Shown one piece after another: positions 13,853 through 64,000 of a stretch of DNA of 64,000 nt. A program made the position numbers and the translations under genes. Position 1 is the first letter of the stretch. Each line of letters opens with the position of its first letter. The notes below the pieces were generated by a model. That model was given only the letters and a program-made list of their open reading frames with translations, had not been told where the DNA came from and made no database searches. The stretch is taken from NCBI GenBank assembly GCA_004298015.1, contig SCSE01000083.1, forward strand, positions 62,001 to 126,000. The letters are read 5' to 3'. The DNA is from Rhodanobacter sp. (lineage in GTDB: Bacteria; Pseudomonadota; Gammaproteobacteria; Xanthomonadales; Rhodanobacteraceae).

Positions 13853-13995
13853 GTTCGTTCCTCGGCCGCGCACCCGCGCACGGCTCATGCATGCAATGAG
13901 CTGGCAGCTGACGAGGGAGGGGACGGAACAACGGGCAGGGAGGGTCGCCACAGCACGTGGTTCAGCCTCGCCCACCGCGAGCCACCAGGAAATCG

Positions 13996-14200
13996 TCCAG
14001 GCCGGTCTCCGGGCTTGCAAGTGGCATGCGGTGATCCGCCTTGCCCCGAACAGCGCCTTCCCGTGCCGTGCACAGTGGCCTTTCGCTGTTCGACTACTCG
14101 CTTACCGTTGCGGGGGCAGCGCCGGTCTTGCAGTGCATCGCGCACCACGCACCGGCTTCCCGTTTCATCCTTCGGGCATACGCCGTCGGGACACCTGAAC
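13996..14200 (-). ncRNA. Cobalamin (AdoCbl) riboswitch upstream of btuB
   Basis: Read on the minus strand, the leader carries the hallmark blocks of the cobalamin riboswitch in order. These are GGGAAGCCGGTG (near 14165-14150), GCTGCCCCCGCAACGGTAAG (14120-14101, the strongest signature), GGCCACTG (14080-14073), CGGGAAGGCGC (near 14063) and AGCCCGGAGACCGGCC (14016-14001). It lies about 145 bases before the btuB start. Such elements lower expression when adenosylcobalamin is plentiful. The expression platform between 13853 and 13995 is not obvious; I see no T-run terminator, so control of translation is more likely. Confidence 0.95.
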
Positions 14201-14543
14201 TGAACGGGATTTTAACGGCTGCGACCCGTGGTCGCAATGGGATACCCCTAAATCGAGCTCATTGTTCGATAAATAGATTCGATCACGGAGAACGTGACAG
14301 AAAACATGTGATTTCGAAACGGTGTAATCGCATTCGCGATATATTTCTACGAAAACGTAACAATTTGTATTGACGCAAGGTTTTACGAGGGCTTAAGGTC
14401 GAACGACAAGTCAGTCGATACCGCGAAAGATCAAGTGTTTGCACGCGTCATCGAAAGCTTTGGCTGCCGACCGACTTGTTTGCTCATCGCATGAACGTGC
14501 GTTATTCGGCCACTCGGCCTTACTCTGGGGAGAGTCCTTCACA
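14201..14543. promoter_or_regulatory. AT-richer intergenic region between btuB riboswitch and the Oar-like receptor
   Basis: This 343-base gap has no convincing gene. It is clearly richer in A and T than its surroundings. It should contain the btuB/riboswitch promoter reading left and the receptor promoter reading right. A candidate for the latter is TTGACG at 14370-14375, 17 bases, then TTAAGG at 14393-14398. GGGGAGAG at 14527-14534 is the ribosome binding site of the receptor. Confidence 0.45.
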
Positions 14544-38912: not shown

Positions 38913-40535
38913 CTATGTCGCTCTGACGGCGGTCGCAGTAGGCGGGTGACTTTCCCCAGCCGCTCTGCCCTTTAGCAGCAGCCGATAGGCCGGGTGTTCG
39001 CTCTCGTCGCGATACGGGTAACCCAGCGTATCGAGAAAGCGCTGGAACAGTCCCCGCTCCTGCGGTGGCACCTGGATACCCACCAGGATGCGACCGTAGT
39101 CGGCACCCTGGCTGCGATAGTGGAACAAGCTGATGTTCCAGTCCGGATGCATCTGGCCGAGAAAGCGGACCAGGGCACCAGGGCGCTCGGGAAATTCGAA
39201 GCGGTACAGCAACTCATGCTGCGCCAGCGGCGACCGGCCACCGATCATGTGCCGCAGATGCAGCTTGGCCAACTCGTCGTCGGTAAGGTCGAGCACGCCG
39301 AACGCCTGGGTGTGGAATGCGGCGACCAGTTCCTCCCGTTCGCTGCGACTGGCGGTCTGCACGCCAACGAAGATATGCGCCTCGTGGGTATCGGCGATGC
39401 GGTAGTTGAACTCGGTCAGGCTGTGGTCGCCGAGCGCGGCGCAGAAGCGGCGAAAACTGCCGCGTTGCTCGGGGATGGTGACCGCGAATACCGCCTCGCG
39501 CTGCTCGCCGACCTCGGCCCGTTCGGCGACGAAGCGCAGGCGGTCGAAGTTCATGTTCGCACCGGAAACGATCGCCACACACGCACCTTCACCGGGTCCG
39601 TGCGTCTCCAGGTATTGCTTGAGACCTGCCAGCGCCAATGCACCGGCCGGTTCCGGCACGCTGCGGGTCTGCTGGTAAATGTCGCGGATCGCCGCACAGA
39701 GCGCATCGGTATCCACCCGCAACATGGCGTCGACGTGGCGGCGGCACAGCTCGAAGGTCAGCGCGCCCACCTGCTTTACCGCGGTCCCGTCGGCGAACAG
39801 GCCGACCTCGTCCAGCACGATGCGGCTGCCGGCCTCGAGTGAGCGTGCCATGGCGTCGGAATCGGCGGCCTGGACACCGATCACCGCCACCTCGGGTCGC
39901 AAGGTCTTGATGCAAGTGGCCACGCCAGCCAGCAGACCGCCGCCACCGACCGGTACGAAAACCGCCCGCAACGGGCCTGGATGCTGGCGCAGGATCTCCA
40001 GACCCACGGTGGCCTGGCCGGCGATCACCAGCGCATCGTCAAACGGGTGCACGAAGGTAAGCCCGTGCTCGGCCTGCAGGTCGGCCGCCACCGCTTGTGC
40101 GTCGCTGTAGGAGTCGCCATCTAGCACGATCTCCACCATCGCACCGCCGAGGCGGCGCACCGCATCCACCTTCATCCGCGGTGCGGTCACCGGCATCACG
40201 ATCACCGCACGGATCCCCAGTTTCGCCGCGGCCAGCGCCACCCCTTGCGCATGGTTGCCCGCCGAGGCGGCAATCACGCCACGGTCACGCGCGGCCGGGT
40301 CAAGCTGCACCATCCGGTTGTAGGCACCGCGCAGCTTGAACGAGAACACACTTTGCCGGTCCTCGCGCTTGAGCAACACCGGTTGCCCGAATCGGGCCGA
40401 CAGCTCCGGTGCGGACTCCAGCGGTGATTCGCTGGCCACGTCATAGACGCGGGCGCCATGCGCCAGGCGCAGCAACTCGTGGTCGAGCAGGCGGGCGGGT
40501 GGATCGTGCAAGTGCGAGGCTGCCGCGGCAGTCAT
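38913..40535 (-). CDS. ilvA: Threonine dehydratase (deaminase), biosynthetic
   Basis: A 540-residue PLP enzyme that converts threonine to 2-oxobutanoate, the entry to isoleucine. The catalytic domain (1-345) has [12 protein letters not shown] with the PLP Lys near residue 66, [12 protein letters not shown] near 89 and the [10 protein letters not shown] loop near 196. Two ACT-like regulatory domains (about 350-520) are the site of isoleucine inhibition. Its start overlaps the ilvM stop (ATGA). It is the last gene of the cluster and links the threonine operon to isoleucine synthesis. Confidence 0.95.
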
Positions 40536-40780
40536 GCCGCTTCGGGCCGCGCCGGATGATGCACTTCCAGCACATCGACCAGTTTGCGCGTCTGTTGCAG
40601 GATCTGCGCGATGCTGGCGTCATCGCCCTGCAAGGTCAACGTCAGCCGCGAGACCGACGGGTCGGCGGTGGCGGCGACCATCAAGGTATCGATGTTGTAG
40701 CCGCGCGCGGCAAACAATCCGGCCACGCGCACCAGCGCACCGGCTTCGTTCTGCATCAGGATGGTGAGGGTGTGGTTCAT
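40532..40780 (-). CDS. ilvM: Acetolactate synthase small subunit, short ACT form
   Basis: An 82-residue protein consisting of a single ACT domain ([36 protein letters not shown]). It is the regulatory subunit of acetohydroxyacid synthase. Its length matches IlvM-type subunits, not the ~160-residue IlvH/IlvN. The ATG at 40780 is preferred over one at 40825, which overlaps the large-subunit gene and adds unrelated residues. It is followed by ilvA with a 4-base overlap. Confidence 0.88.
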
Positions 40781-40821
40781 GATCGATCTCGCTGGCGGGT
40801 GCCGGGTTTCGACGGCGCCGG

Positions 40822-42690
40822 TCAAAACATCGCCGTGGGCGTGTCTTGAGTGGGTTCGGGGGCTTCTCGCGAGGCAATGAAATCGCCGGTGATCATCTGC
40901 GCATAGCTGGCGCCGGGACCGACCATCGGGTAGACACCGGCGTCCGGATCGATCATCACCTCCAGGAACGCCGGACCTTCAAAGGCGAGAAAGCGGGCGA
41001 TCACAGACTCCATCTGCGCCGGGCGATCCAGTCGTTCCGCCCAGGCGAAGCCGTCCGCCTGCGCGGCCTTGACGAAGTCCTTCGAATGCAGGCTCTTGTC
41101 GGACGAGGCGAAGCGGCCCTTGAAGAACAGCTTCTGCCACTGCCGCACCATGCCGTCACCGCAATTGTTGAGCACCACCACCTTCACCGGCAGGCCGTAG
41201 GTGGTGACGGTCTCCATCTCGCCGATGTTCATGCGGATGCTGGCATCGCCGTCGATGTCGATTACCAGCGCATCCCGACGGGCGAACTGCGCCCCGATCG
41301 CGGCCGGCAGGCCGAAGCCCATCGTGCCCATCGAACCGGAAGTGAGCCACTGCCGCGGCTCGCGGAAATCGAGATATTGTGCGGCCCACATCTGGTGTTG
41401 GCCGACACCGGTGCTGACCACCGCACGCCCCTCGGTATGGCGGTTGATCGCCTCCAGCACCGCATAGGGCTGGATCAATGCGCTGGCGCGATCATAGTTG
41501 AGCGCGTGCACCCGCTTGAGTCGGGCCACGTGCGCGTGCCAGTCGGCATAGCGCCGATCGGCTTGCGGATGAAACCCGTGCGCCTTGCCGTAGCGCAGCA
41601 AGCGCTCCAGCGCACGTACCAGCGGTCCGCAGTGATACCACTGTACCGCCTTGACCTTGCCGATTTCGGCAGGATCGATGTCGATCTGCGCAATGAACTT
41701 CGCCGCCGGCGCAAACTTGTCCGGTACCCCGGCCACGCGGTCATCGAAGCGCGCACCGAGGGCCAATACGAAATCGCAATCCTCGACCGCGTAGTTGGCG
41801 TAGGCGGTACCGTGCATGCCGAGCATGTGCAACGCCAGCGGGTCGGTAGTGTCCACTGCGCCAAGACCCATCAGCGTGGTGGTGACCGGCAAGCCGAAGG
41901 CTTCCACGAAGGCGCGCAAGGCCGGTGCCGCCTGTGCCGCAATAACCCCGCCACCGGCATAGATCAGCGGCCGTCCCGCCCGCCCCAGCGCCTTGAAGAA
42001 GGCGGCGCACTCCGCATCGCTCAACGTCGATTGCTCGACCGCGCGCATTCTCGCGCGATAACCGGGAATCGCCAGGGTGCCCTCACCCTCGAAGCGCAGC
42101 AGGACGTTCTGCACATCCTTGGGAATGTCCACCACCACCGGTCCCGGACGACCACTGCGGGCGATTTCGAAGGCCGTGCGCAAGGTCGCTTCGAGCCGCT
42201 GCGCCTCGGTCACCAGGAACACGTGCTTGGCGCAGGCGCCCATGATGTTGCTGATCGGCGCCTCCTGGAACGCATCGCTGCCGATCGAGGCGGTCGGTAC
42301 CTGGCCGCAGATCACCACCAGCGGGATCGAATCGGCCATCGAGTCGCGCACCGGCGTCACCATGTTGGTGGCACCGGGACCCGAGGTGACCACGGCTACC
42401 CCGACCTTGCCCGAGGCTCGCGCATAGCCGGCCGCCATGAAACCCGCGCCCTGTTCGTTGGCCGGCACGATCAACGGCATCGGCTCGCCGCCATCCTCTC
42501 GGGGATGCTCCATGTTGTAGCGGAACACCGCGTCGTAGACCGGCAGGATCGCACCGCCGGAGTAACCGAACATCACGTCCACGCCGACATCGGCGAGCAC
42601 CTGCACGATGATCTCGGCACCGCTCATCGACTGTCCCGCCAGCGGGTGGCGGGCAATCCCACTTTCGGCTTTCAACGTTTGCACATTCAC
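40822..42690 (-). CDS. ilvG: Acetolactate synthase large subunit
   Basis: A 622-residue TPP enzyme that makes acetolactate and acetohydroxybutyrate, the shared first step of valine and isoleucine synthesis. It has [16 protein letters not shown] near 39, the catalytic Glu in [13 protein letters not shown] near 78, [11 protein letters not shown] near 185, and the TPP/metal motif [21 protein letters not shown] near 487. The pairing with an IlvM-type subunit suggests the ilvG name; ilvB or ilvI would describe the same activity. An inner ATG (Met22) is an alternative start. Confidence 0.94.
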
Positions 42691-42757
42691 TGGATCGGTT
42701 TCCTCGACACATGGGCGATACGTGCACGCCGGCTGCCAGCAGGCGGCGTGCCGCGCA

Positions 42758-43777
42758 TCAGCCTGCTTTCTTCAATGGCGTTGCAGCCTTCTCGACAGCC
42801 TCCGGCTGCAGCCACGGCATCCGCGCGCGCAGGGCGGCCCCGACCTGCTCGATCGGATGATCGAGATCGGCCTGCTTGAGCTTCTTGTAGTTCGGCAAGC
42901 CGGCCTTGTACTCCTCGGTCCAGTTCTTCGCGAAGGTGCCGTCCTGGATGTCGCGCAGCACGTCTTTCATGCGCGCCTTGACGCCGGCATCGATGACTCG
43001 CGGTCCGCTAACGTAGTCGCCGTACTGGGCGGTTTCGGAGACAAATTGCAGCATCTTGGTCAGACCGCCCTCGTAGAACAGGTCGACGATCAGCTTCAGC
43101 TCGTGCATCACTTCGTAATAGGCAATCTCCGGCTGGTAGCCAGCCTCGACCAGGGTCTCGAAGCCCGCAATCACCAGCTCGCTGGCACCACCGCACAGCA
43201 CCGCCTGTTCACCAAACAGATCGGTCTCGGTCTCTTCCTTGAAGTCGGTGGCGATGATCATCGCGCGGCCACCGCCGATACCGTCGGCATAGGCCTTGGT
43301 GATGGCCTCGGCCTGGCCGCTGACATCCTGGTGCACCGCCCAGATGCACGGCACGCCGCGACCACGCTCATATTCGCTGCGCACCAAGGCACCAGGCCCC
43401 TTGGGCGCGACGAGAATCACGTCGATGTCCTTGCGCGGCACGATCTGGCCGAAGTGCACGTTGAAACCATGGGCGAACAAAAGCGCCGCGCCGGCCTTGA
43501 TGTTGGGTTCGATCGACGCCTTGTACAGGGTCGGCTGCACCATGTCCGGCGTCAGCACGGCCACCAGGCCGGCACCTTTCACGGCCTCGCCAGGCTCGAC
43601 CACGGTGAAGCCGTCGGCCTCGGCCTTGTGCCAGGTCGGGCCGTTCGGGCGCAGGCCGACCACCACATCGAGACCGGAGTCGCGCAGGTTGAGCGCATGG
43701 GCGCGGCCCTGGCTGCCGTAACCGAGTACGGCGATGCGCGCCTTGGCGAGGGGATTGGGGTTGCTGTGGGTACTCAT
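42758..43777 (-). CDS. ilvC: Ketol-acid reductoisomerase, class I
   Basis: A 339-residue NADP-dependent enzyme that isomerises and reduces acetohydroxy acids. It has the cofactor motif [14 protein letters not shown] near 17 and AHGFNVHFG near 107 with the active His. The metal-binding residues are in [12 protein letters not shown] and the E...[14 protein letters not shown] segment. Length fits the short class I enzyme. Its start overlaps the ilvD stop by 4 bases. Confidence 0.96.
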
Positions 43778-45492
43778 GCGGTAACTCCTTGATCGACTGT
43801 TGTGCTTGATGAATTGGCCGTCTGGGCGGCCGAACTTGTGGAAGTTTGAAGATGGGTTGTGGCGCCATCGGAGGCAGAACCGACCAAGCGTGCGTACTTG
43901 GCCAAAGCGCCGCTGGTGACCTTGGCCGCGGGTGGGTTCCAGCCGGCGCGGCGAGCCTCGAGATCGGCCGTGGTGGAAAGCTGGCGACTGGCGGCGTCAA
44001 TCACGATCGGGTCGCCATCGCGCAGCAGGGCGATCGGACCGCCACGCACCGCTTCGGGTGCCACATGGCCGACCATGAAGCCGTGAGTGGCGCCGGAAAA
44101 ACGGCCGTCGGTGATCAGACCGACGTCATTGCCGAGTCCCCGGCCAACCAGTGCCGCGGTGACGCCGAGCATTTCGCGCATGCCCGGGCCACCGGCGGGA
44201 CCTTCATTGCGGATCACGATCACGTCACCCTTGGCGATGCTGCCGCCTTGCACGGCGGCAAAGGCCTGCTCCTCGCTCTCGAACACCCGGGCGACGCCCT
44301 CGAAGTGGCTGGCACCCTTGCCGGCGAGTTTCAGGATGCAGCCTTCCGGGGCCAGGTTGCCGTACAGGATCGAGTAGCCGCCGCGCGGTTTCAACGGAAT
44401 ACTCACCGGATGCACGACCTCCTGTGCCTCGGCACGCGGTGCCGCAGCGACCTCTTCGAACAGCGTGCGACCGGTGACAGTCGGTCCGTCTTGCAGCATG
44501 CCGGCGGCGATCAGCTCCTGTGCTACACGGGCACTGCCGCCGGCACCGAACAACTCCACCGCGGTATAGCGACCGGCCGGCAGCAGGTCCGCGATCACCG
44601 GGGTATGCACCGAGGCCGGCTCGAAATCCTCGATCGTCCATGGCACCCCGGCCTCCCGCGCGATCGCCAGCAGGTGCAATATCGCATTGGTCGAACCCGC
44701 GGTGGCGGCAACCATGCGCGCCGCGTTGCTCAACGAGGTCCGGTTGAGCATTTCGCGCGGCGTGCGATTGGCCTGCAGGCATTCCATCACCAGTTCGCCA
44801 CAGCGAAACGCCGCCGCACCCTTGGCCGGGTGGGTGGCCGGGATATCGTTGAAGCCCATCGGCGACAGGCCCAGCGTCGACAGCACCATCGCCATGGTAT
44901 TGGCGGTGAACTGGCCGCCACAGGCACCTGCGCCGGGACAGGCGTCGCGTTCGACCGCGGCCAGTTCCTCATCGTCGATCTTGCCGGCACCATGTGCACC
45001 GACCGCCTCGAACACCTGCTGGATGGTGATCGGATGGTTGTCGTGGGTACCGTGCGCGATGCTGCCGCCGTACAACGCGACACCGGGAATGTTCAGCCGC
45101 GCCAGCGCCATCGCGGCGGCCGGGATGGTCTTGTCGCAACCGCACAGCACCACCATCGCATCGAGGCAATGGCCGTCCACCGCCAGCTCGATCGAGTCGG
45201 TGATCACCTCGCGGCTGACCAGCGAGGCGCGCATGCCCGAGGTGCCCATCGCGATGCCATCGGTGACGGCGATCGTGTTGAACTCGATCGGGGTACCGCC
45301 GGCGGCGCGGATACCGGCGGCCGCCTCGACGGCCAGGTCGCGCAAGTTGAGGTTGCACGGACTGACGTTGGACCAGGTATGCACCACGGCGACCAGCGGG
45401 CGCGCGATCGCCGCGTCGTCCAGTCCGGTGGCGCGCAACATGGCGCGGGCGGGGGCGCGGTCGGGGCCGCTCTTGATCACATCACTGCGCAT
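43774..45492 (-). CDS. ilvD: Dihydroxy-acid dehydratase
   Basis: A 572-residue iron-sulfur dehydratase that forms the 2-keto acids of valine and isoleucine. Cluster Cys residues lie in [11 protein letters not shown] near 42, [15 protein letters not shown] near 115 and [16 protein letters not shown] near 185; [13 protein letters not shown] is near 468. The ATG at 45492 has GGAG 6 bases upstream. The C-terminal ~25 residues (Ser/Thr-rich) extend beyond the family. A 162-base gap with a long inverted repeat separates it from leuB. Confidence 0.95.
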
Positions 45493-45521
45493 GAAAACTC
45501 CAAAATCCGTCGAGGTGGATG

Positions 45522-45607
45522 TCCCCCTGCGTGCAGGCCGGGAACGGGTGGCGCGGGGAGTCGTGACGCCAAGGGGGCACGTTCGCCAGCGCATGCACGC
45601 AGGGGGA
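45522..45607. repeat. 14-bp perfect inverted repeat in the leuB-ilvD gap
   Basis: TCCCCCTGCGTGCA at 45522-45535 pairs exactly with TGCACGCAGGGGGA at 45594-45607, 58 bases apart. It starts 30 bases before the ilvD start in transcription sense. It may be an mRNA processing or stability hairpin that separates the leu and ilv parts of the transcript. No T-run is present. Confidence 0.75.
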
Positions 45608-45654
45608 GCAAGTGGCGGACGCGGCAAGCGTCCGGAAAAGGAATGGCGCCTCGA

Positions 45655-46752
45655 TCAGCCGCATGCGCGTGCACCGCTGAAAAAGGCGTGATGGGTACGG
45701 GCGTGGTCTTCCACTGCGACCAGCACGGCATCGCGTACCGCGACCGTACCGGCCTGACCGCCGATATCCCGGGTGCGCGGACCGTGTTCCAGCACATGGG
45801 TGACGGCAGCCTCCACCGCCTGCGCCTCGGCTTCCAGTTGCAGCGAATGACGCAGCAGCAACGCGGCAGAAAGTATCGCGCCCAGCGGGTTGGCCACGCC
45901 CTGCCCGGCAATGTCCGGGGCCGAGCCGTGGATCGGTTCATACAGGCCGCGCCGACCCTCGCCGAGCGATGCCGATGGCAGCAAGCCGAGGGAGCCGGCC
46001 AGTGCCGCAGCCTCATCGGTCAGGATGTCGCCGAACAGGTTCTCGGTGACCACCACGTCGTAGCGCGACGGCTGGGTCAGCAGCAGCATCGCCATCGAAT
46101 CGACCAGCTGATGCTCGACCTTGACGTCGGGGTAGTCGCTGGCGACGCGCTGCACCGTGTTGCGCCACAGCCGCGAGGTTTCCAGCACGTTGGCCTTGTC
46201 CACCGAGGTGAGATGGCGACGGCGATCGCGCGCCAGCGCGAAGGCGCGACGCACCACCCGCTCGATTTCGACCACGGTGTATTTGCACTCGTCGGTAGCG
46301 GTGTCGGCGGTGCGTGTCTTGGCACCGAAGTAGGCACCACCGGTGAGCTCACGAACAAACAGCACGTCGACATCCTTGAGCCGCTCGTTCTTCAGTGGGG
46401 ACAGCGACGCCAGTGCCGGATGCACCTGCAGCGGCCGCAAATTCGCGTACACGCCGAGCGCGGCACGCAGCGCCAGCAGACCTTGTTCCGGCCGCACTGG
46501 GGCATTCGGATCGGACCATTTCGGTCCGCCGACCGCGCCCAGCAACACCGCATCGGCACCCTGGCACGCCGCCAGTGCCCCGGCCGGCAACGGCTCGCCA
46601 CAGGCATCGATGGCGGCGCCGCCGATCGCATGTGGTTCAAAGCTGAAGTCATGTTCGTAGTGGCTGGCGACGGCTTGCAGCACAGCGACTGCCACTTCAG
46701 TGACTTCAGGACCGACGCCATCGCCGGGCAAGGTAACGATACGCGCCTTCAT
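45655..46752 (-). CDS. leuB: 3-isopropylmalate dehydrogenase
   Basis: A 365-residue NAD-dependent enzyme for the third step of leucine synthesis. It shows LPGDGVGPEVT near 8, GAVGGPKWSD near 73, VRELTGGAYFG near 135, SVDKANVLETSRLWR near 185, the metal-binding DSMAMLLL and TENLFGDILTDEAAAL stretch, and EPIHGSAPDIAGQ near 276. The start at 46752 overlaps the leuD stop (ATGA). Confidence 0.96.
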   Translation of the reverse strand: MKARIVTLPGDGVGPEVTEVAVAVLQAVASHYEHDFSFEPHAIGGAAIDACGEPLPAGALAACQGADAVLLGAVGGPKWSDPNAPVRPEQGLLALRAALGVYANLRPLQVHPALASLSPLKNERLKDVDVLFVRELTGGAYFGAKTRTADTATDECKYTVVEIERVVRRAFALARDRRRHLTSVDKANVLETSRLWRNTVQRVASDYPDVKVEHQLVDSMAMLLLTQPSRYDVVVTENLFGDILTDEAAALAGSLGLLPSASLGEGRRGLYEPIHGSAPDIAGQGVANPLGAILSAALLLRHSLQLEAEAQAVEAAVTHVLEHGPRTRDIGGQAGTVAVRDAVLVAVEDHARTHHAFFSGARACG

Positions 46753-47348
46753 GCTGCCTGCTCCTGCTGGAAATGATCTGCTTGCTGTTCGTAATGCGTG
46801 ATCGCGTCGGCGTGCTGCAGCAGGTAGCCGAGCTGGTCGATGCCGTTGAGCAGGCAATGGCGCGCGAACGGTTCGAGGGCGAAGCTGATTCGCCCGCCAT
46901 CGGGCAGCACGATGTATTCGCCGCGTACGTCGATCGACAACTCGACCCCGGGGTGATCGAGCAGCCAGCGGTGCTCCGCCTCGCTGACCATGATCGCCAG
47001 CAACCCGTTCTTCAACGCGTTGTTGCGAAAGATGTCCGCGATCTCGCTGCACAGCACGGCCTGGATGCCGTAGTCGAGCAAGGCCCATGGCGCATGTTCG
47101 CGTGACGAGCCGCAACCGAAGTTGCGTCCGGCGACCAGGATCGCGCAGCCGCTGGCCTGCGACCGGTTCAGGGGAAACTCGGGGTTGTCGCTGCCGTCGG
47201 CCTGATAGCGCCAGTCGTGAAAGCACAGCCGACCCAGGCCGTCGCGCGTAGTGGTGGTGAGGAACCGCGCCGGAATGATCCGGTCGGTGTCGATGTTCTC
47301 GTCTGCCAATATCGCGGTACGGGATTGAACGCGGGTGATCGGGCGCAT
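46749..47348 (-). CDS. leuD: 3-isopropylmalate dehydratase, small subunit
   Basis: A 199-residue subunit of isopropylmalate isomerase. It has DENIDTDRIIPARFL near 17, GRNFGCGSSREHAPWAL near 70 and FRNNALKNGLL near 106. The ATG at 47348 is preferred (GAGGAG 11 bases upstream); the frame is open to 47531, but that extension is encoded by the dispersed repeat. Confidence 0.96.
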   Translation of the reverse strand: MRPITRVQSRTAILADENIDTDRIIPARFLTTTTRDGLGRLCFHDWRYQADGSDNPEFPLNRSQASGCAILVAGRNFGCGSSREHAPWALLDYGIQAVLCSEIADIFRNNALKNGLLAIMVSEAEHRWLLDHPGVELSIDVRGEYIVLPDGGRISFALEPFARHCLLNGIDQLGYLLQHADAITHYEQQADHFQQEQAA

Positions 47349-47370
47349 CAATGAAACTCCTCGCTTCTTG

Positions 47371-47425
47371 CGTTCGCCTCCTCTCCCCGTCGGGGAGAGG
47401 ATTGAGGTGAGGGGCGGGTGCTCGC
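47371..47425. repeat. 55-bp dispersed repeat, copy B (leuC-leuD gap)
   Basis: It matches 33741-33795 with three mismatches and contains the palindrome CTCCCCGTCGGGGAG. It lies 22 bases upstream of leuD, inside the 226-base gap after leuC, the largest gap among the leu genes. The rest of the gap holds no gene I can support. Confidence 0.85.
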
Positions 47426-47574
47426 CATGGGGTGGATCGAAGCCCGTTCCGATGTTGCGGCAAGGCAAGCGAGCCTCCTCACCTCGGTCCTCGACAATGG
47501 CTCCTTGCATGGCTCGAGCTCCTGCATCCATGCAGTCGCCTCCGAGCCGGGAAGCGGAACAACAGCGTGAGCGC

Positions 47575-48987
47575 TCATGCCGCCACCTCCACCAGATACT
47601 CGCGTGGATCGGCGATGTGACCGGCCAGCGCGGAGGCCGCAGCCGTTGCCGGGCTGGCCAGCACGGTACGCGCGCCCTTGCCCTGGCGACCCTCGAAATT
47701 GCGGTTGGAGGTACTCACCACCAGCTGGCCCGGCTGGGCCAGATCGCCGTTCATCGCAATGCACATCGAACAGCCCGGCACCCGCCACTCGGCACCGGCA
47801 GCGGTGAAGACCTCATGCAGGCCTTCGCGCTCGGCCTCGCGGCGTACCGCCTCGGAACCGGGCACCACCAGCATGCGGACCCATGACGCCACCGTCCGAC
47901 CGCGCAGCACGCTGGCGGCTTCGCGCAGATCGGACAGGCGCGAATTGGTGCAGCTGCCGACGAACACCACATCGATCCGCGTGCCCTGCATCGGCTTGCC
48001 CACCTCGCTTTTCATGTAGTCGAGTGCGCGCCGCTCCTGTGCGTTGCGCGCGGCGGGTACCGGCGCGTCCATCGCAATCGCCATGCCCGGATGGGTGCCG
48101 TAGGTGACGGTCGGCGTAACCCGGCTGGCGTCGATCCGTACCTCACGGTCGAAGCTGGCGCCCGCATCGCTGTGCAGACCGCGCCAGCGCGTCACGGCGG
48201 CATCCCACGCCTCACCTTGCGGGGCCTGCGGTCGCCCCTTGAGCCAGGCGAAGGTGGTTTCGTCCGGTGCGATCATGCCCGCCCGCGCACCCGCTTCGAT
48301 CGACATGTTGCAGACCGTCATGCGCTCTTCCATCGACAGCGCCTCGATCGCCGCACCGCGGTATTCGATGACATGCCCGGTGCCGCCGTCGACACCGATC
48401 TGGCCGATGATGTGCAGGATCAGGTCCTTGGCGCCGACCCCGGCCGGCAGCTTGCCGTCGACGTGAATCGCCAGCGTCCTGGGCTTGCGCTGCAACAGGC
48501 ACTGGGTGGCCATCACATGGCCGACTTCGGTGGTGCCGATGCCGAAGGCCAGCGCGCCGAACGCCCCGTGGGTCGAGGTATGACTGTCGCCGCAGACGAT
48601 GGTCATGCCCGGCTGGGTCGCGCCCAGCTCCGGGCCGATCACGTGCACGATGCCGCGAGCGGCGCTATCCCAACCATGCAGCTCGACGCCGAATTCGCGG
48701 CAATTGCTTTCCAGCATGCTGACCTGCGCCTGCGCCTGATCGTTTGCATACGGACGCACGCCGTCGGCGCCGGCGGGCAGGGTTGGGGTGGAATGGTCAA
48801 GCGTGGCCAGCATGCGATCGGGACGACGCAGGGGCAGTCCGCGCTGACGAAGCTCGCTGAACGCCTGCGGCGAGGTGACTTCATGCACCAGATGCAGGTC
48901 GACGTACAAGACCGCCGGAGTGTCGGCGCTCTCGGCAGCCACCACGTGCGCGTTCCACACTTTCTCGAACAGGGTTTTTGCGCTCAT
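47575..48987 (-). CDS. leuC: 3-isopropylmalate dehydratase, large subunit
   Basis: A 470-residue aconitase-family subunit with a 4Fe-4S cluster. It has [13 protein letters not shown] at the start, [31 protein letters not shown] near 131, the cluster Cys in [13 protein letters not shown] near 345, and GCSMCIAMN near 408. Its start overlaps the ilvE stop (ATGA). Confidence 0.97.
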
Positions 48988-49940
48988 GCCGCCACCTTCT
49001 TGTCGGTCGCGGTTTCATCGGCAACACCCACCAGGTCCAGCCAGCCCCAGCGATCTTCCGTACTACCGTCAAACAGACCGAAGAAGGCCTTCTGCAGGTC
49101 GCGGGTGAGCGGACCGGGCTTGCCGGCGCCGACGGCTTTGCGATCGACCGAGCGCACCGGGGTGATCTCGGCCGCGGTACCGGTCATGAAGATCTCGTCG
49201 GCGCTGTACAGCGCCTCGCGCGGCAAGTCCCGCTCTTCCACCGACAGCCCCAGGTCGGTGGCCAGGGTGATCACCGCATCGCGGGTGATGCCCGCCAGGA
49301 TGCCGGCGCTGCTCGGCGGCGTCAGCAGCTTGCCACGCCTGACCAGGAACAGGTTCTCGCCGGCACCCTCGCTGAGCAGACCGTTGCTGCCCAGCGCGAT
49401 GCCCTCGTCATAGCCGCCACGACGCGCTTCCAGGGCGATCAGCTGGCTCGACAGGTAGTTGCCGCCGGCCTTGGCCCAGCTCGGCACGGTATTCGGTGCC
49501 GGTCGGTTCCAGGTCGACACGCAGACATCCGCGCCGCGCTCCATGGCGTCGCCGAGGTAGGCACCCCAGTCCAGCGCCATGATCGCCACATCCACCGGCG
49601 CGTTGCCGGCGGCGGGAATCACCCCCAACCCGCCGGCACCGCGAAACACGATCGGGCGTACATAGGCCGAACGCATGTGATTGACGCGGATCAGCTCCCG
49701 GCATGCGGCATTGATCTGCTCTTCGCTGTAGCCGATCTCGATCTCATACACCTTGGCCGACTCGAACAACCGGCGCGTGTGTTCGGCCAGGCGGAAATAC
49801 GCCGGACCTTGCGGGGTCGCATAGACCCGCTCGCCCTCGAACACCGAGGAGCCATAGTGCAGGGCGTGCGTGCTGACGTGGACGGTGGCCTCGGCCCAGG
49901 GTTTGACCTGACCGTTGTGCCACAGGAAAGCGGTACTCAT
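48984..49940 (-). CDS. ilvE: Branched-chain amino acid aminotransferase
   Basis: A 318-residue fold-type IV PLP enzyme that makes valine, leucine and isoleucine from their keto acids. It has [16 protein letters not shown] near 27, the PLP Lys in [20 protein letters not shown] near 158, [14 protein letters not shown] near 192 and [13 protein letters not shown] near 254. It lies between leuA (15 bases upstream) and leuC (overlap), so the final step for all three amino acids is placed in the leucine part. Confidence 0.96.
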
Positions 49941-49955
49941 GAATGACTCCTCGAC

Positions 49956-51542
49956 TTACAAATGGGCGACGGCGACCGGCGGACGAACCGGGGCCTGTCG
50001 CTCGATGCGGTTGACGATGGCGAGTGCGGCCAGCGCGGTCGCCTCGACGATGTCGGTGCTGACGCCATGACCGTTCCAGTCGCGCTTGCCGTGGCGTGCG
50101 GTGAGCTGTGCCTGACCCTGGGCATCGCCGCCTTCACTGACCGCGCGCACGTTGAAATCGGTCAGTTGCAACTCGTTGCCGGTGGCACGCTCGATGGCGC
50201 GCAGCACGGCATCCACCGGCCCGTCGCCGATCGCCGCCTCGCTGGCTTCGCGGCCGTCCTCGTGTGCAAGCTGCACTGAAGCCGAGGCGCTGCCGCCGAG
50301 GTGCGTGGCGCTGGTGAGCTGGACGATCCGCCACGGGCCGGTGGCATCCGGGTCCTGACCCAGTGCGATCGCCTCCAGGTCTTCGTCGTGAATCTCGCGC
50401 TTCTTGTCGGCCAGGGTCTTGAAGCGTGCAAAGATGCCATCCATCTCGGCGTCGACCGGACGGTGGCCCAGTGCCTGCAGGCGCTGGCGCAGCGCGGCGC
50501 GACCGGAGTGCTTGCCCAGTACCAGGCGGGTTTCGGCGATACCCACATCCTGCGCGTGCATGATTTCGTAGGTGCCGCGATGCTTGAGCATGCCGTGCTG
50601 ATGGATGCCGGCTTCATGCGCGAAGGCGTTGTCACCGACGATCGCCTTGTTGCGTGGCACCGCCTGCCCGGTCAGCTGCGTCAGCAGGCGCGAGGTGGGA
50701 TACAGCTTGCGGGTGTCGATGCGGGTGTCGACACCGAAGTGCGGCGCACGCACCTTCAACGCCATCACGATTTCTTCCAGCGCCGCGTTGCCGGCACGCT
50801 CGCCAATGCCGTTGATGGTGCATTCGACCTGGCGCGCGCCGGCACTGATTGCGGCCAGGCTGTTCGCCACCGCCATGCCCAGATCGTCGTGGCAGTGGCT
50901 GGAAAAGATCACCTTGTCCGCGCCGGCAACGTGACGCCGCAGGTACTCGAACAACTCGATGATTTCCGCCGGCGTGGTGTAACCGACCGTGTCGGGTGCA
51001 TTCAACGTGGTCGCGCCGGCGGCGACCGCGGCGCTGAACACCTCGACCAGGAAGTCAGGTTCGGTGCGCAGCGCATCTTCGGCCGAGAATTCCACTTCGT
51101 GGCACAGCCCGCGTGCCCGCTCCACGCCAGCCACGGCGGTATCCAGTACCTGCGCCTTGCTCATGCCCAGCTTGTGCTCGCGGTGCAGCGGACTGGTCGA
51201 CAGAAACACATGGATGCGTGAACGCTGCGCTGCCTCCAGCGCCTTTCCGGCGGCGTCGATGTCGACCGACTGGCAACGCGCCAGGCCGCAGACGGTGGTC
51301 GATTCCAGGGTGCGCGCGATTTCGGCGACCGCGGCGAAATCATCCGGCGACGCCTGCGGAAAGCCCGCTTCAAGTACGTCCACGCCAAGCGCCTCCAGCG
51401 CCTGCGCCATGCGCAGCTTGGCCTTTCGGTCCATCGAAAAGCCCGGTGCCTGCTCTCCATCGCGCAAGGTGGTGTCGAAAATGCGCACGCGCTCAGCCGC
51501 TACGTCGGCATCCTCGTGATGGCTATCTGCTATGGGGTTCAT
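49956..51542 (-). CDS. leuA: 2-isopropylmalate synthase
   Basis: A 528-residue enzyme that condenses acetyl-CoA and 2-ketoisovalerate, the first step of leucine synthesis. The TIM barrel has FDTTLRDGEQAPGFSM near 21 and the metal-binding HCHDDLGMAVANS near 212; the C-terminal LeuA allosteric domain (about 400-515) is the site of leucine feedback. The ATG at 51542 has GGAG 9 bases upstream and is preferred to codons at 51563 and 51566. First structural gene of the cluster, 32 bases after the attenuator hairpin. Confidence 0.96.
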   Translation of the reverse strand: MNPIADSHHEDADVAAERVRIFDTTLRDGEQAPGFSMDRKAKLRMAQALEALGVDVLEAGFPQASPDDFAAVAEIARTLESTTVCGLARCQSVDIDAAGKALEAAQRSRIHVFLSTSPLHREHKLGMSKAQVLDTAVAGVERARGLCHEVEFSAEDALRTEPDFLVEVFSAAVAAGATTLNAPDTVGYTTPAEIIELFEYLRRHVAGADKVIFSSHCHDDLGMAVANSLAAISAGARQVECTINGIGERAGNAALEEIVMALKVRAPHFGVDTRIDTRKLYPTSRLLTQLTGQAVPRNKAIVGDNAFAHEAGIHQHGMLKHRGTYEIMHAQDVGIAETRLVLGKHSGRAALRQRLQALGHRPVDAEMDGIFARFKTLADKKREIHDEDLEAIALGQDPDATGPWRIVQLTSATHLGGSASASVQLAHEDGREASEAAIGDGPVDAVLRAIERATGNELQLTDFNVRAVSEGGDAQGQAQLTARHGKRDWNGHGVSTDIVEATALAALAIVNRIERQAPVRPPVAVAHL

Positions 51543-51573
51543 CGTTTGGCTCCGCTGGCGCATCACCGGGGCA

Positions 51574-51607
51574 ACAAAAAACCCCGCTCCGTTTCCGGTG
51601 CGGGGTT
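51574..51607 (-). terminator. Attenuator terminator of the leu-ilv operon
   Basis: On the minus strand AACCCCGC (51607-51600), A, CCG, loop GAAA, CGG, A, GCGGGGTT (51587-51580) form a long stem with one A-A mismatch, followed by a T-run (51581-51576). It lies between the leader peptide stop (51652) and leuA (51542). The first arm can instead pair with the 3' end of the leader peptide gene: GGTGCGGG (51663-51656) with CCCGCACC (51604-51597). That supplies the antiterminator pairing of a classical attenuator. Confidence 0.9.
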
Positions 51608-51651
51608 CTTCGGGAGTCTTCAGGTTTTTCTAGTTACCTGGACACATGCCC

Positions 51652-51741
51652 TCAGCCCGCACCTCCGTTGGTAATGAGGAGGACGAGTACAAGAATGAGG
51701 AGAAGCGTGCCGCGATGCTGCAGCAAGCCGTGGACCGTCAT
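51652..51741 (-). CDS. leu-ilv operon leader peptide
   Basis: A 29-codon gene encoding MTVHGLLQHRGTLLLILV and continuing LVLLITNGGAG. Eleven of the twelve residues from 13 to 23 are Leu, Ile or Val, so ribosomes will stall when these amino acids are short. AAAGGA (51754-51749) lies 7 bases before the ATG, an ideal site. An in-frame ATG at 51789 has none. A terminator hairpin and competing pairing follow before leuA. Stalling at the Leu/Val/Ile run should favour the antiterminator. No function beyond regulation is expected. Confidence 0.93.
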   Translation of the reverse strand: MTVHGLLQHRGTLLLILVLVLLITNGGAG

Positions 51742-51795
51742 CTGACGATCCTTTCTGGCGATCTTGCGGGGGCTGCTGCGTTGCGACATGAACCG

Positions 51796-51825
51796 ACCAT
51801 AAGACAGCTTGCGAAGCGGCGTCAA
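51796..51825 (-). promoter_or_regulatory. Promoter of the leu-ilv operon
   Basis: TTGACG (51825-51820) and TATGGT (51801-51796) are 18 bases apart, placing the start of transcription near 51788, about 47 bases before the leader peptide. The same arrangement and much of the same sequence precede the thr operon. Confidence 0.75.
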
Positions 51826-55550: not shown

Positions 55551-55628
55551 CTATTCGCGCACGGACACCCACCCCGACCGGGTCGTAATCGAGGTCGTGG
55601 TGGTAATCGTGCGGATGAAGGGATGCAT
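55551..55628 (-). CDS. thrL: thr operon leader peptide
   Basis: A 25-codon frame, MHPFIRTITTTTSITTRSGW and a short tail, with nine Thr/Ile codons plus a Ser between residues 7 and 16. It resembles the E. coli ThrL pattern of Thr and Ile runs. It lies 94 bases before hom and behind a good promoter. The Thr run is certain; the start is not, since GGCGGT lies too close to the ATG at 55628 and an in-frame ATG at 55712 is nearly at the expected transcript start. Confidence 0.8.
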   Translation of the reverse strand: MHPFIRTITTTTSITTRSGWVSVRE

Positions 55629-55718
55629 ACCGCCATGAGCATCATGGATGCCCGGATGACCGGCGAGGAGCCGATCGGGGTGTATCCGTGCTGGCGCGGC
55701 GGGTAGCGACATGGGTCG

Positions 55719-55748
55719 ACCATAAATCGGTTGTTGCAGTGCGGTCAA
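55719..55748 (-). promoter_or_regulatory. Promoter of the thr operon
   Basis: TTGACC (55748-55743) and TATGGT (55724-55719) are 18 bases apart, as in the leu-ilv promoter. Flanking bases are shared too: CAAATGAA.CTGTTGAC before, and TTATGGTCG...CATGTCGC after. Transcription should start near 55711. Confidence 0.75.
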
Positions 55749-62583: not shown

Positions 62584-64000
62584 TCAGGCCGCGGCCTTGG
62601 CAGCTTCCTCGCGGTCGACATGGTGCGTGATCCACCATTGTTGCCCGAGGCCGACCAGGCCGTTGACCGCGTAGTACAGGCACAAGCCTGAGGGGTAGAA
62701 GGCGAACAGCACCGTGAACAGCAACGGCATCACCTTCATCATCTTGGCCTGCGCCGGGTCCATGCCGGCAGCGGCAGGATTGAGCCATTGCGTACCCAGC
62801 ATCACCGCGGCATAGACGACCGGAAGGATGTAGAGCGGGTCCGGAGCGCTGAGGTCGGGGATCCACAGGAACGCCGCATGACGCAGCTCAAGACTGTATT
62901 CGAGCACGTAGAACAGGCCCAGGAACACCGGCATGGTGATCAGTACCGGCAGGCAGCCGCCCATCGGGTTGATCTTTTCCTTCTTGTACAGCTCCATGGT
63001 GGCCTGCTGCATCTTCACCTTGTCGTCGCCGTAACGCTCCTTAAGCTGCTGGATGCGTGGCGCCAGCTTGCGCATCCGCGCGCTGGAGCGGTATTGCATC
63101 GCGGTCAGCTTCCAGGTGGCCAGCTTGATCAGCAGCACCAGCAGGATGATCGCCAGACCCCAGTTCTGGGCGATCCGGTGCAGTTGCGAAAGCACCCAGT
63201 GCATCGGCACCGCAATCGCCTTGAACATGCCGTAATCGATGGTCAGGTCCAGGCCCGGTGCGATCGCGTCGAGGGTGCCTTGCAGATTGGGCCCGACATA
63301 CAAACGCGACTGCGTGCTGACGGTCTTTCCGGGCGCCACCGAGAGTGCGGGACCCACCGCACGAATGAGGTAGCGCGGCTGCGCGCTGTCCGGGTTGATC
63401 GTGGCGGTGACGTAATGGTCGGTCTGGTTCGCCGGTGGAATCCAGGCGGCGAAGAAGTACAGCCTGAGCATCGCCGCCCAGCCACCCTTGATCTGGCTAT
63501 CCAGTCGGTCTTTTTTGTCGCTGAAGTTCTTGAATTCGAGCTTCTCGAATTTTTCGCCGGTATACCAGGCGGCACCATGGAAACTGCGTGACTCCGGATC
63601 GGTGAAATGCTTCAGCCAGTTGCTCGGCGTCGGCGGCGGCACCCCCTGCAACTGCAGATAGGGATTGCCCTGCCAGGCCTGACTACTGCCGTTGTCGATC
63701 TGTTGGGTCAGCCCGATCACATAGCTGCCGCGCTTGAAACTGTAAGTCTTGGTGACCTTCAGACCCGCGGCATCGCGCCAGGTGAGGTTGACGTTCAGCG
63801 TGTCCTGACCCTTGGCCAGGGTGTACGAGGTGCGGGCGCTGTCGAACAACGCCAGATGATCCGGCTGATCTGCCTTCGCGGTATCACTGCTGCTGACCAG
63901 GCCATCTTGCGCCACGAAATAGCGACTGGAACTGTTGTTCAGCAGCACGGTCGGCGGCGGGTTGGGGTTCTTGTGGCTGGGGGCGGAGGCGGGGTAGGCC
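62584..64000 (-). CDS. yidC: Membrane protein insertase YidC, C-terminal part
   Basis: The frame stays open to the right edge of the window, so the N-terminal helix and part of the periplasmic domain lie outside; 471 residues are seen. The visible part has the end of the periplasmic beta-sandwich (LNNSSSRYFVAQDG, FHGAAWYTGEKFEKL) and the five-helix core: ALSQLHRIAQNWGLAIILLVLLIKLATW, the MRKLAPRIQQLKERYGDDK coiled coil, NPMGGCLPVLITMPVFLGLFYVL and two more helices. It inserts proteins into the inner membrane with or without SecYEG. It normally follows rpmH-rnpA, which would lie to the right. Confidence 0.96.
   Translation of the reverse strand, partial: AYPASAPSHKNPNPPPTVLLNNSSSRYFVAQDGLVSSSDTAKADQPDHLALFDSARTSYTLAKGQDTLNVNLTWRDAAGLKVTKTYSFKRGSYVIGLTQQIDNGSSQAWQGNPYLQLQGVPPPTPSNWLKHFTDPESRSFHGAAWYTGEKFEKLEFKNFSDKKDRLDSQIKGGWAAMLRLYFFAAWIPPANQTDHYVTATINPDSAQPRYLIRAVGPALSVAPGKTVSTQSRLYVGPNLQGTLDAIAPGLDLTIDYGMFKAIAVPMHWVLSQLHRIAQNWGLAIILLVLLIKLATWKLTAMQYRSSARMRKLAPRIQQLKERYGDDKVKMQQATMELYKKEKINPMGGCLPVLITMPVFLGLFYVLEYSLELRHAAFLWIPDLSAPDPLYILPVVYAAVMLGTQWLNPAAAGMDPAQAKMMKVMPLLFTVLFAFYPSGLCLYYAVNGLVGLGQQWWITHHVDREEAAKAAA

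Follow-up and report, generated by a model that had tools for sequence, protein, structure and literature searches.

The window (the whole stretch of DNA that was analysed, 64,000 nt in length) carries on its minus strand ten reading frames that match NCBIfam models for leuA, ilvE, leuC, leuD, leuB, ilvD, ilvC, ilvG, ilvM and ilvA, with ilvG and ilvM corresponding to the large and small subunits of acetolactate synthase. These matches support the same-strand cluster, leu genes ahead of ilv genes, that had been described in an earlier reading of this DNA made from its letters only (the sequence-only reading). Neighboring genes overlap or lie no more than 67 nt apart, except between leuC and leuD (226 nt, 47574-47349, as measured from the leuD start implied by the NCBIfam leuD model) and between leuB and ilvD (162 nt, 45654-45493). 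The leuC-leuD gap contains an inverted repeat (CCTCTCCCC/GGGGAGAGG), possibly a dispersed repeat or else a processing site. Among named sequences, the nearest LeuA is that of a Rhodanobacter MAG at 92% identity, followed by those of Rhodanobacter, a Lysobacterales MAG and Dyella. Among the named loci L103-L122, leuA-ilvE-leuC-leuD comes first in 20 of 20 and leuB is next in all 19 whose contig extends (the contig of L112 stops after leuD); in the same set, L118 gave no ilvD hit. A consensus scan of 38.5-52.1 kb returned a single promoter, 51825-51796, at the leader described below, a result that proves little by itself since 1.2 matches are expected in shuffles. We infer that the ten genes are co-transcribed.

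Table 1 Features of the leader element, the operon downstream and the threonine leader.
Feature	Position	Strand	Remark
-35 hexamer TTGACG	51820..51825	(-)	
-10 hexamer TATGGT, spacer 18	51796..51801	(-)	
Leader ORF from promoter-proximal ATG 51789, 45 codons + TGA, MSQRSSPRKIARKDRQMTVHGLLQHRGTLLLILVLVLLITNGGAG	51652..51789	(-)	98/101 family loci, 32/40 other-family loci
Internal ATG of 29-codon ORF, AAGGA at 51753-51749 ahead	51739..51741	(-)	non-conserved
Sensing codons LLLILVLVLLI = CTT CTC CTC ATT CTT GTA CTC GTC CTC CTC ATT	51673..51705	(-)	
Region 1 (CTCGTCCTCC), partner of region 2	51678..51687	(-)	
Region 2 (GGAGGTGCGGG), within final codons of leader ORF	51656..51666	(-)	
Region 3, terminator 5' arm	51596..51605	(-)	
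Region 4, terminator 3' arm + six-T run 51581-51576	51576..51591	(-)	
leuA, first structural gene	49956..51542	(-)	NCBIfam model match
ilvE, leuC, leuD (start ~47348), leuB (start ~46752), ilvD, ilvC, ilvG, ilvM, ilvA	38913..49940	(-)	
Threonine-operon twin, TTGACC-N18-TATGGT-6 nt-ATG 55712, 53-codon leader with ITTTTSITT	55551..55748	(-)	

The DNA in front of leuA combines a short ORF rich in leucine, isoleucine and valine codons, an intrinsic terminator, and a 2:3 pairing that is mutually exclusive with the terminator and is joined by a 1:2 pairing (Table 1). In the ORF, the eleven residues LLLILVLVLLI are followed by T, such that eleven of twelve consecutive codons are for Leu, Ile or Val; only one other stretch with at least 10 such codons in 12 occurs in the six frames of the 64 kb, at 63156. 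The terminator consists of the stem CCCCGC (51605-51600)/GCGGGG (51587-51582), an A-A mismatch above it, a GAAA loop and six T residues. It was absent from the output of a mechanical terminator scan because the mismatch breaks the stem. The sequence GGTGCGGG (51663-51656) is the exact complement of CCCGCACC (51604-51597) over eight bases. The codon run, the terminator with its loop and T-run (on the minus strand) and the eight-base alternative pairing had all been pointed out in the sequence-only reading and were confirmed. Folding, which it had proposed as a check, was likewise in its favor, as the 176-nt fold has an energy of -71.9 kcal/mol (z -3.6) and none of 200 dinucleotide shuffles was equally stable. 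When the whole window was scanned with Rfam, no cis-regulatory leader family matched the leader at the gathering threshold; a cobalamin riboswitch (13983-14213, minus strand, 102.4 bits) was all that the scan recovered. Judged by its sequence, the leuA-ilvE-leuCDB-ilvDCGMA operon of this Rhodanobacter-like genome is predicted to be controlled by leader-peptide transcription attenuation, a regulatory mechanism of a known kind.

The leader was compared within the window's family using 117 genomes, 101 of which had a LeuA match while 16 did not; weak second LeuA-like hits in four genomes (G008, G032, G050 and G061) were left out. A TTGAC-N17/18-TAnnnT promoter with a downstream ATG that shares the frame of the Leu/Ile/Val run was present at 98 of the 101 leuA loci, spanning 25 genera. 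Because the search pattern fixed TTGAC, TAnnnT, the ATG and the frame, these four do not count as independent evidence within the family. The distance between the -10 and the ATG was free to vary from 3 to 11 nt, and only 6, 7 and 8 nt were seen (18, 68 and 12 loci, respectively). In the window, ATG 51789 lies 6 nt past the -10 of the TTGACG-N18-TATGGT promoter. The usual start distance of sigma-70 RNA polymerase is 6-8 nt past the -10. Since this gap recurs in 98 of the 101 family loci, transcription is predicted to begin on the A of ATG 51789 or no more than 1-2 nt from it, giving an mRNA with almost no 5' UTR. The 98 leader ORFs take twelve different lengths between 38 and 57 codons. The three family loci with no leader element before leuA (L100-L102) have an ilvA-like frame directly upstream of leuA as judged by eye, and the gene order in a Dokdonella locus (L134) is ilvD-ilvC-ilvG-ilvE-ilvA-leuA-leuCDB. 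Where an ilvA-like gene adjoins leuA on its upstream side, the leader may sit before ilvD instead.

Transcription could alternatively begin well upstream of the ATG, with some other cause behind the 6-8 nt gap. In favor of this, some pairing with the anti-Shine-Dalgarno sequence does exist 5' of the leader ATG, with a median of -3.25 kcal/mol and 37 of 98 leaders at or below -4. This falls between the pairing at leuA, which is stronger (-5.8 kcal/mol, 84 of 91 at or below -4), and that in a control stretch, which is weaker (-2.1, 6 of 98). An upstream start does not explain, however, why promoter positions outside the search pattern are conserved. The sixth base of the -35 is A in 90 of 98 leaders, and the fourth and fifth bases of the -10 are G in 79% and 76% of 78 leaders, while no column of the spacer exceeds 58%. 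Nor does it account for the recurrence of the promoter-ATG geometry in other families (see below), and we regard it as improbable. The element is instead, with good probability, a transcription attenuator of the ribosome-mediated type, with a leaderless mRNA as the template for its leader peptide. The bases that follow the -10 (51795-51790 in this leader, 55718-55713 in the threonine leader) are nearly always CG (C 96% and G 91% in 78 family leaders with a spacer of 18). A GC-rich discriminator of this kind would not be expected where the stringent response induces an amino-acid operon.

The sequence-only reading had placed the start of the leader peptide elsewhere, at ATG 51741, from which a 29-codon ORF (51741-51652, 29 codons plus stop) would be translated via an 'ideal ribosome binding site' as in a classical attenuator with a 5' UTR. 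The AAGGA lies 7 nt ahead of this ATG and its anti-Shine-Dalgarno energy of -5.4 kcal/mol makes a fair ribosome site. However, in L103, the closest named relative, whose LeuA is 92% identical, the AAGGA is kept while a CTG replaces the ATG. No in-frame ATG other than the promoter-proximal one exists in 83 of the 98 family leaders and, apart from the window itself, the 14 leaders that do have a second one carry it at other codons. The start at 51741 was rejected on these grounds of conservation, and a classical attenuator of this form appears slightly less probable even than an upstream transcription start. With the promoter-proximal ATG present at 98 of the 101 loci, a CTG at the 51741 position in L103 and no second ATG in 83 leaders, the start of the conserved leader is thus assigned to 51789. 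The comparison with leaders of related genomes, which had also been suggested, therefore upheld the element and not its proposed start. ATG 51741 could be a second start in its own genome, and internal starts are conceivable in some leaders because 41 of the 98 contain an internal ATG, GTG or TTG ahead of their final 20 codons. The likely leaderless start, region 1, the choice of rare codons and the twin leader of the threonine operon had all been missed in the sequence-only reading.

The codons of the sensing region are strongly biased. In the 98 leaders, CTT and CTC make up 573 of 598 Leu codons, ATT 147 of 158 Ile codons and GTA 163 of 202 Val codons; in six operon genes of the window, the same codons account for 47 of 238, 18 of 124 and 19 of 238, respectively. 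CTT and CTC are read by one tRNA type, so that what the leader senses would be a minor isoacceptor for leucine. The 1:2 pairing may instead account for some of the codon bias.

Selection on the peptide was examined by pN/pS in the 59 of 98 leaders that are 45 codons in length, using 813 non-independent pairs as well as 28 disjoint pairs. With the 813 pairs, pN/pS was 1.06 for codons 2-7, 0.93 for codons 8-16, 1.11 for codons 17-27, 0.98 for codons 2-27 and 0.53 for the Leu/Ile/Val part; with the disjoint pairs, it was 0.98 for codons 2-7, 1.01 for codons 8-27 and 0.53 for the Leu/Ile/Val part. At both kinds of site, codons 2-7 have changed about a third as much as codons 8-16. Since their pN/pS is close to 1 despite this slow change, their conservation looks like a signal at the nucleotide level, ATG-NCG-CAN-CGC-ANC-ANC, rather than one in the peptide. 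The N-terminal part of the peptide looks unselected, and over codons 2-27 of the 59 leaders pN/pS detected no selection outside the sensing codons. A function of the peptide in trans like that of peTrpL in Sinorhizobium meliloti, with the start MSQRNSH as a functional motif, would suit the strong conservation of codons 2-7 and the identity of the peTrpL small ORF's ATG with the RNA 5' end reported in PMC7298713, but it finds no support in the pN/pS values of codons 2-7 and 2-27 or of the disjoint pairs and is very unlikely.

The three pairings expected of an attenuator were evaluated in 45 of the 98 family sequences. For 3:4, 88.4% of cells were paired and there were 30 double-change cells, with double changes in 7 of the 10 pairs; none of 500 shuffles scored as high. 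Two upper pairs of this stem, 108-121 and 109-120, were each unpaired in 20 of the 45 sequences. The 2:3 pairing was 96.9% paired and had four double-change cells, all in one pair (columns 42-108, U-A to A-U in four sequences). A single double-change pair was reached by 235 of 500 shuffles, while the cell count or the score was reached by none. For 1:2, 88.7% of cells were paired, with four double-change cells in two double-change pairs, as reached by 91 of 500 shuffles; its score was reached by seven. When the registers of the pairings were slid, no more than 62.4% of cells paired. All three pairings are conserved in these alignments; 3:4 shows clear compensatory changes, which are sparse in 1:2 and 2:3. 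Since the paired stretches also belong to coding sequence or the terminator, conservation alone is no proof of 1:2 and 2:3. Region 1 coincides with the sensing codons L-V-L-V-L-L-I. These rank with the best-conserved codons of the peptide, I at codon -7 being present in 97 of the 98 leaders.

The behavior of the switch was simulated with a folding model in which the ribosome covers 13 nt from the A site and a pairing is called likely if its mean pair probability exceeds 0.5. With the ribosome at the stop codon, 3:4 was likely in 97 of the 98 leaders and 2:3 in none. With a stall at codon -10 and region 4 not yet made, 2:3 was likely in 89. At equilibrium with region 4 included, the terminator was likely in 83 despite the stall, and because of this the switch, as modelled, must be kinetic. 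With no ribosome and before region 4, 2:3 was likely in 59, so that the protection of region 2 by 1:2 is incomplete in the model.

From the parts, the conserved start and frame, the conserved pairings and the codon choice recognised by sequence comparison, we infer a course of events that runs from transcription start and leaderless initiation to stalling and read-through. Transcription would begin at or beside A 51789 and the ribosome would load on the AUG with no need for a Shine-Dalgarno site. About 27 unselected codons would then serve as a spacer, after which comes the run of rare codons for Leu, Val and Ile. With charged tRNAs in ample supply, the ribosome would proceed to the stop codon and cover region 2, the 3:4 terminator would form and the polymerase would halt near 51576. 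In a shortage of Leu, Val or Ile tRNA, the ribosome would stall over region 1, leaving 2:3 to form before region 4 is made, and the polymerase would continue into the ten-gene operon. When no ribosome is present, 1:2 may sequester region 2 and so favor termination.

A second leader of the same layout precedes the threonine operon, 4 kb upstream of the leu leader (Table 1). The layout was found at 10 of the 11 loci among L103-L122 that have a hom gene; the exception is L109, where hom starts at the contig end. A strict pattern, TTGAC-N18-20-TAnnnT-N6-8-ATG, has two matches in the 3.93 Mb of the window's own genome, the leu leader and the threonine leader at 55712. The number itself is unremarkable since the reversed pattern also matches once, whereas it is remarkable that both are amino-acid leaders. 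Across 27 family genomes the strict pattern was matched 108 times and the reversed pattern 61 times, a ratio at which chance may explain most individual matches. Sixteen of the 27 genomes have a second strict match 3.8-8.3 kb away from the leu match, as expected for the threonine leader; in three (G013, G022 and G014), the paired second match is 18-31 kb away. Similar read-through upstream of the two leader peptides (MKLLTPLRKLSYGR / MNLLTALQQPIYGR) raised the possibility of their common ancestry. This was dropped because the likeness precedes the promoter-proximal ATG in both and is that of a shared promoter. After the threonine leader, at 55551-55457 on the minus strand, the sequence contains a hairpin with no T-run (CGGCCCCGCC...GGCGGGCCG), which among L103-L121 is kept in most of the 11 aligned sequences. 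The ribosome site of hom, GGAGG, stands opposite a largely conserved GGGCC(T/C)C in this region. A hairpin that lacks a T-run and a GGAGG that faces GGGCC(T/C)C suggest that the threonine leader may act by translational rather than terminator-based attenuation.

To follow the leader beyond the family, a covariance model built on the element's 3' part was run on 151 genomes of the order. It matched 103 at E <= 0.001, with 24 in the window's family and 79 outside it. Forty of the latter were examined, hand-picked and mostly the strongest full-length matches. The first recognised downstream gene at these loci was ilvD in 19, ilvC in 14, leuA in five and ilvG in two. The loci were scored with a promoter matrix derived solely from the window's family, and in 32 of the 40 the top-scoring promoter was followed, 5-9 nt past its -10, by an in-frame ATG. 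In 25 rounds of shuffling of the upstream DNA, such cases averaged 0.24 and never exceeded 1 of 40. The 32 loci fall under eight family labels besides the window's own, and some have weak promoter scores (1.6 for L237). The layout was not found in eight of the 40, which were six of nine loci under one label (f8) and both under another (f12, one of them with masked bases). Outside the order, the model matched seven of 114 class genomes at 1e-5; two of the seven are from the order, the window's own genome included. No convincing leader was seen among the five non-order matches, four of which had no in-frame ATG at the promoter. The fifth (L250) has an in-frame ATG 7 nt past its best promoter, but that promoter scores -0.4 and the Leu/Ile/Val count is 5 of 10, and the locus was discounted.

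The textbook leader-peptide attenuator is drawn with a 5' UTR and a ribosome binding site. If the leaders described here are leaderless, initiation on the nascent RNA would require little beyond the first AUG. The layout would be one that several families within a single gammaproteobacterial order keep while the first gene varies among leuA, ilvC, ilvD and ilvG. Conserved leaderless starts would then extend beyond the published alphaproteobacterial and actinobacterial cases that we encountered. Leader ORFs in this order would be mis-called wherever a Shine-Dalgarno site is required, and the leaders of 38-57 codons offer a natural series for the timing between ribosome and polymerase. It may be speculated, with the odds against it, that in this lineage the branched-chain and threonine attenuators have leaderless leader ORFs, with the nucleotide initiation signal ATG-NCG-CAN-CGC in the branched-chain leaders; because whole 70S ribosomes are expected to load on a leaderless AUG, the switch would then also read the state of the ribosome pool or initiation stress beside tRNA charging.

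A survey of proteobacterial amino-acid attenuators by Vitreschak et al. from 2004 probably covers leu/ilv and thr attenuators of Xanthomonas. In an open-access-heavy literature search, itself weak evidence of absence, we found no paper on a Xanthomonas/leuA leader-peptide attenuator and none that links leaderless transcripts, transcription start sites and leader peptides in Xanthomonas. The mechanism of a leader-peptide attenuator is known; among the matches listed, no title concerned a leaderless one in the window's order, again weak evidence.

In E. coli, leuL, ilvL and thrL work by leader-peptide attenuation. Like the leader in the window, they encode a peptide rich in the regulated amino acids with rare control codons before the first structural gene, and leuL has four CTA codons in a row. 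The two differ in the position of the promoter. The TTGACA-17-TAACTC match of leuL ends 34 nt before the ATG, which has a Shine-Dalgarno energy of -5.6 kcal/mol, whereas the gap in the window is 6 nt. No unambiguous promoter match was obtained for E. coli thrL or ilvL; one of those for thrL lies 19 nt before the ATG. The ilvBNC operon of Corynebacterium glutamicum shares the branched-chain type of attenuator; two papers describe three hairpins with a discussion of leaderless initiation (PMC11857589) and a uORF of 15-17 codons (PMC10272879), in another organism and another operon. Leaderless short ORFs rich in cysteine have likewise been presented as amino-acid-responsive attenuators in mycobacteria, as far as a title cited in PMC13236596 indicates, and these respond to cysteine. 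In S. meliloti trpL (rnTrpL), the leader ORF is reported to lie at the 5' end of the RNA (PMC7298713). This leader concerns tryptophan, has 14 codons and yields a peptide that is active in trans, whereas the peptide encoded in the window bears no sign of selection.
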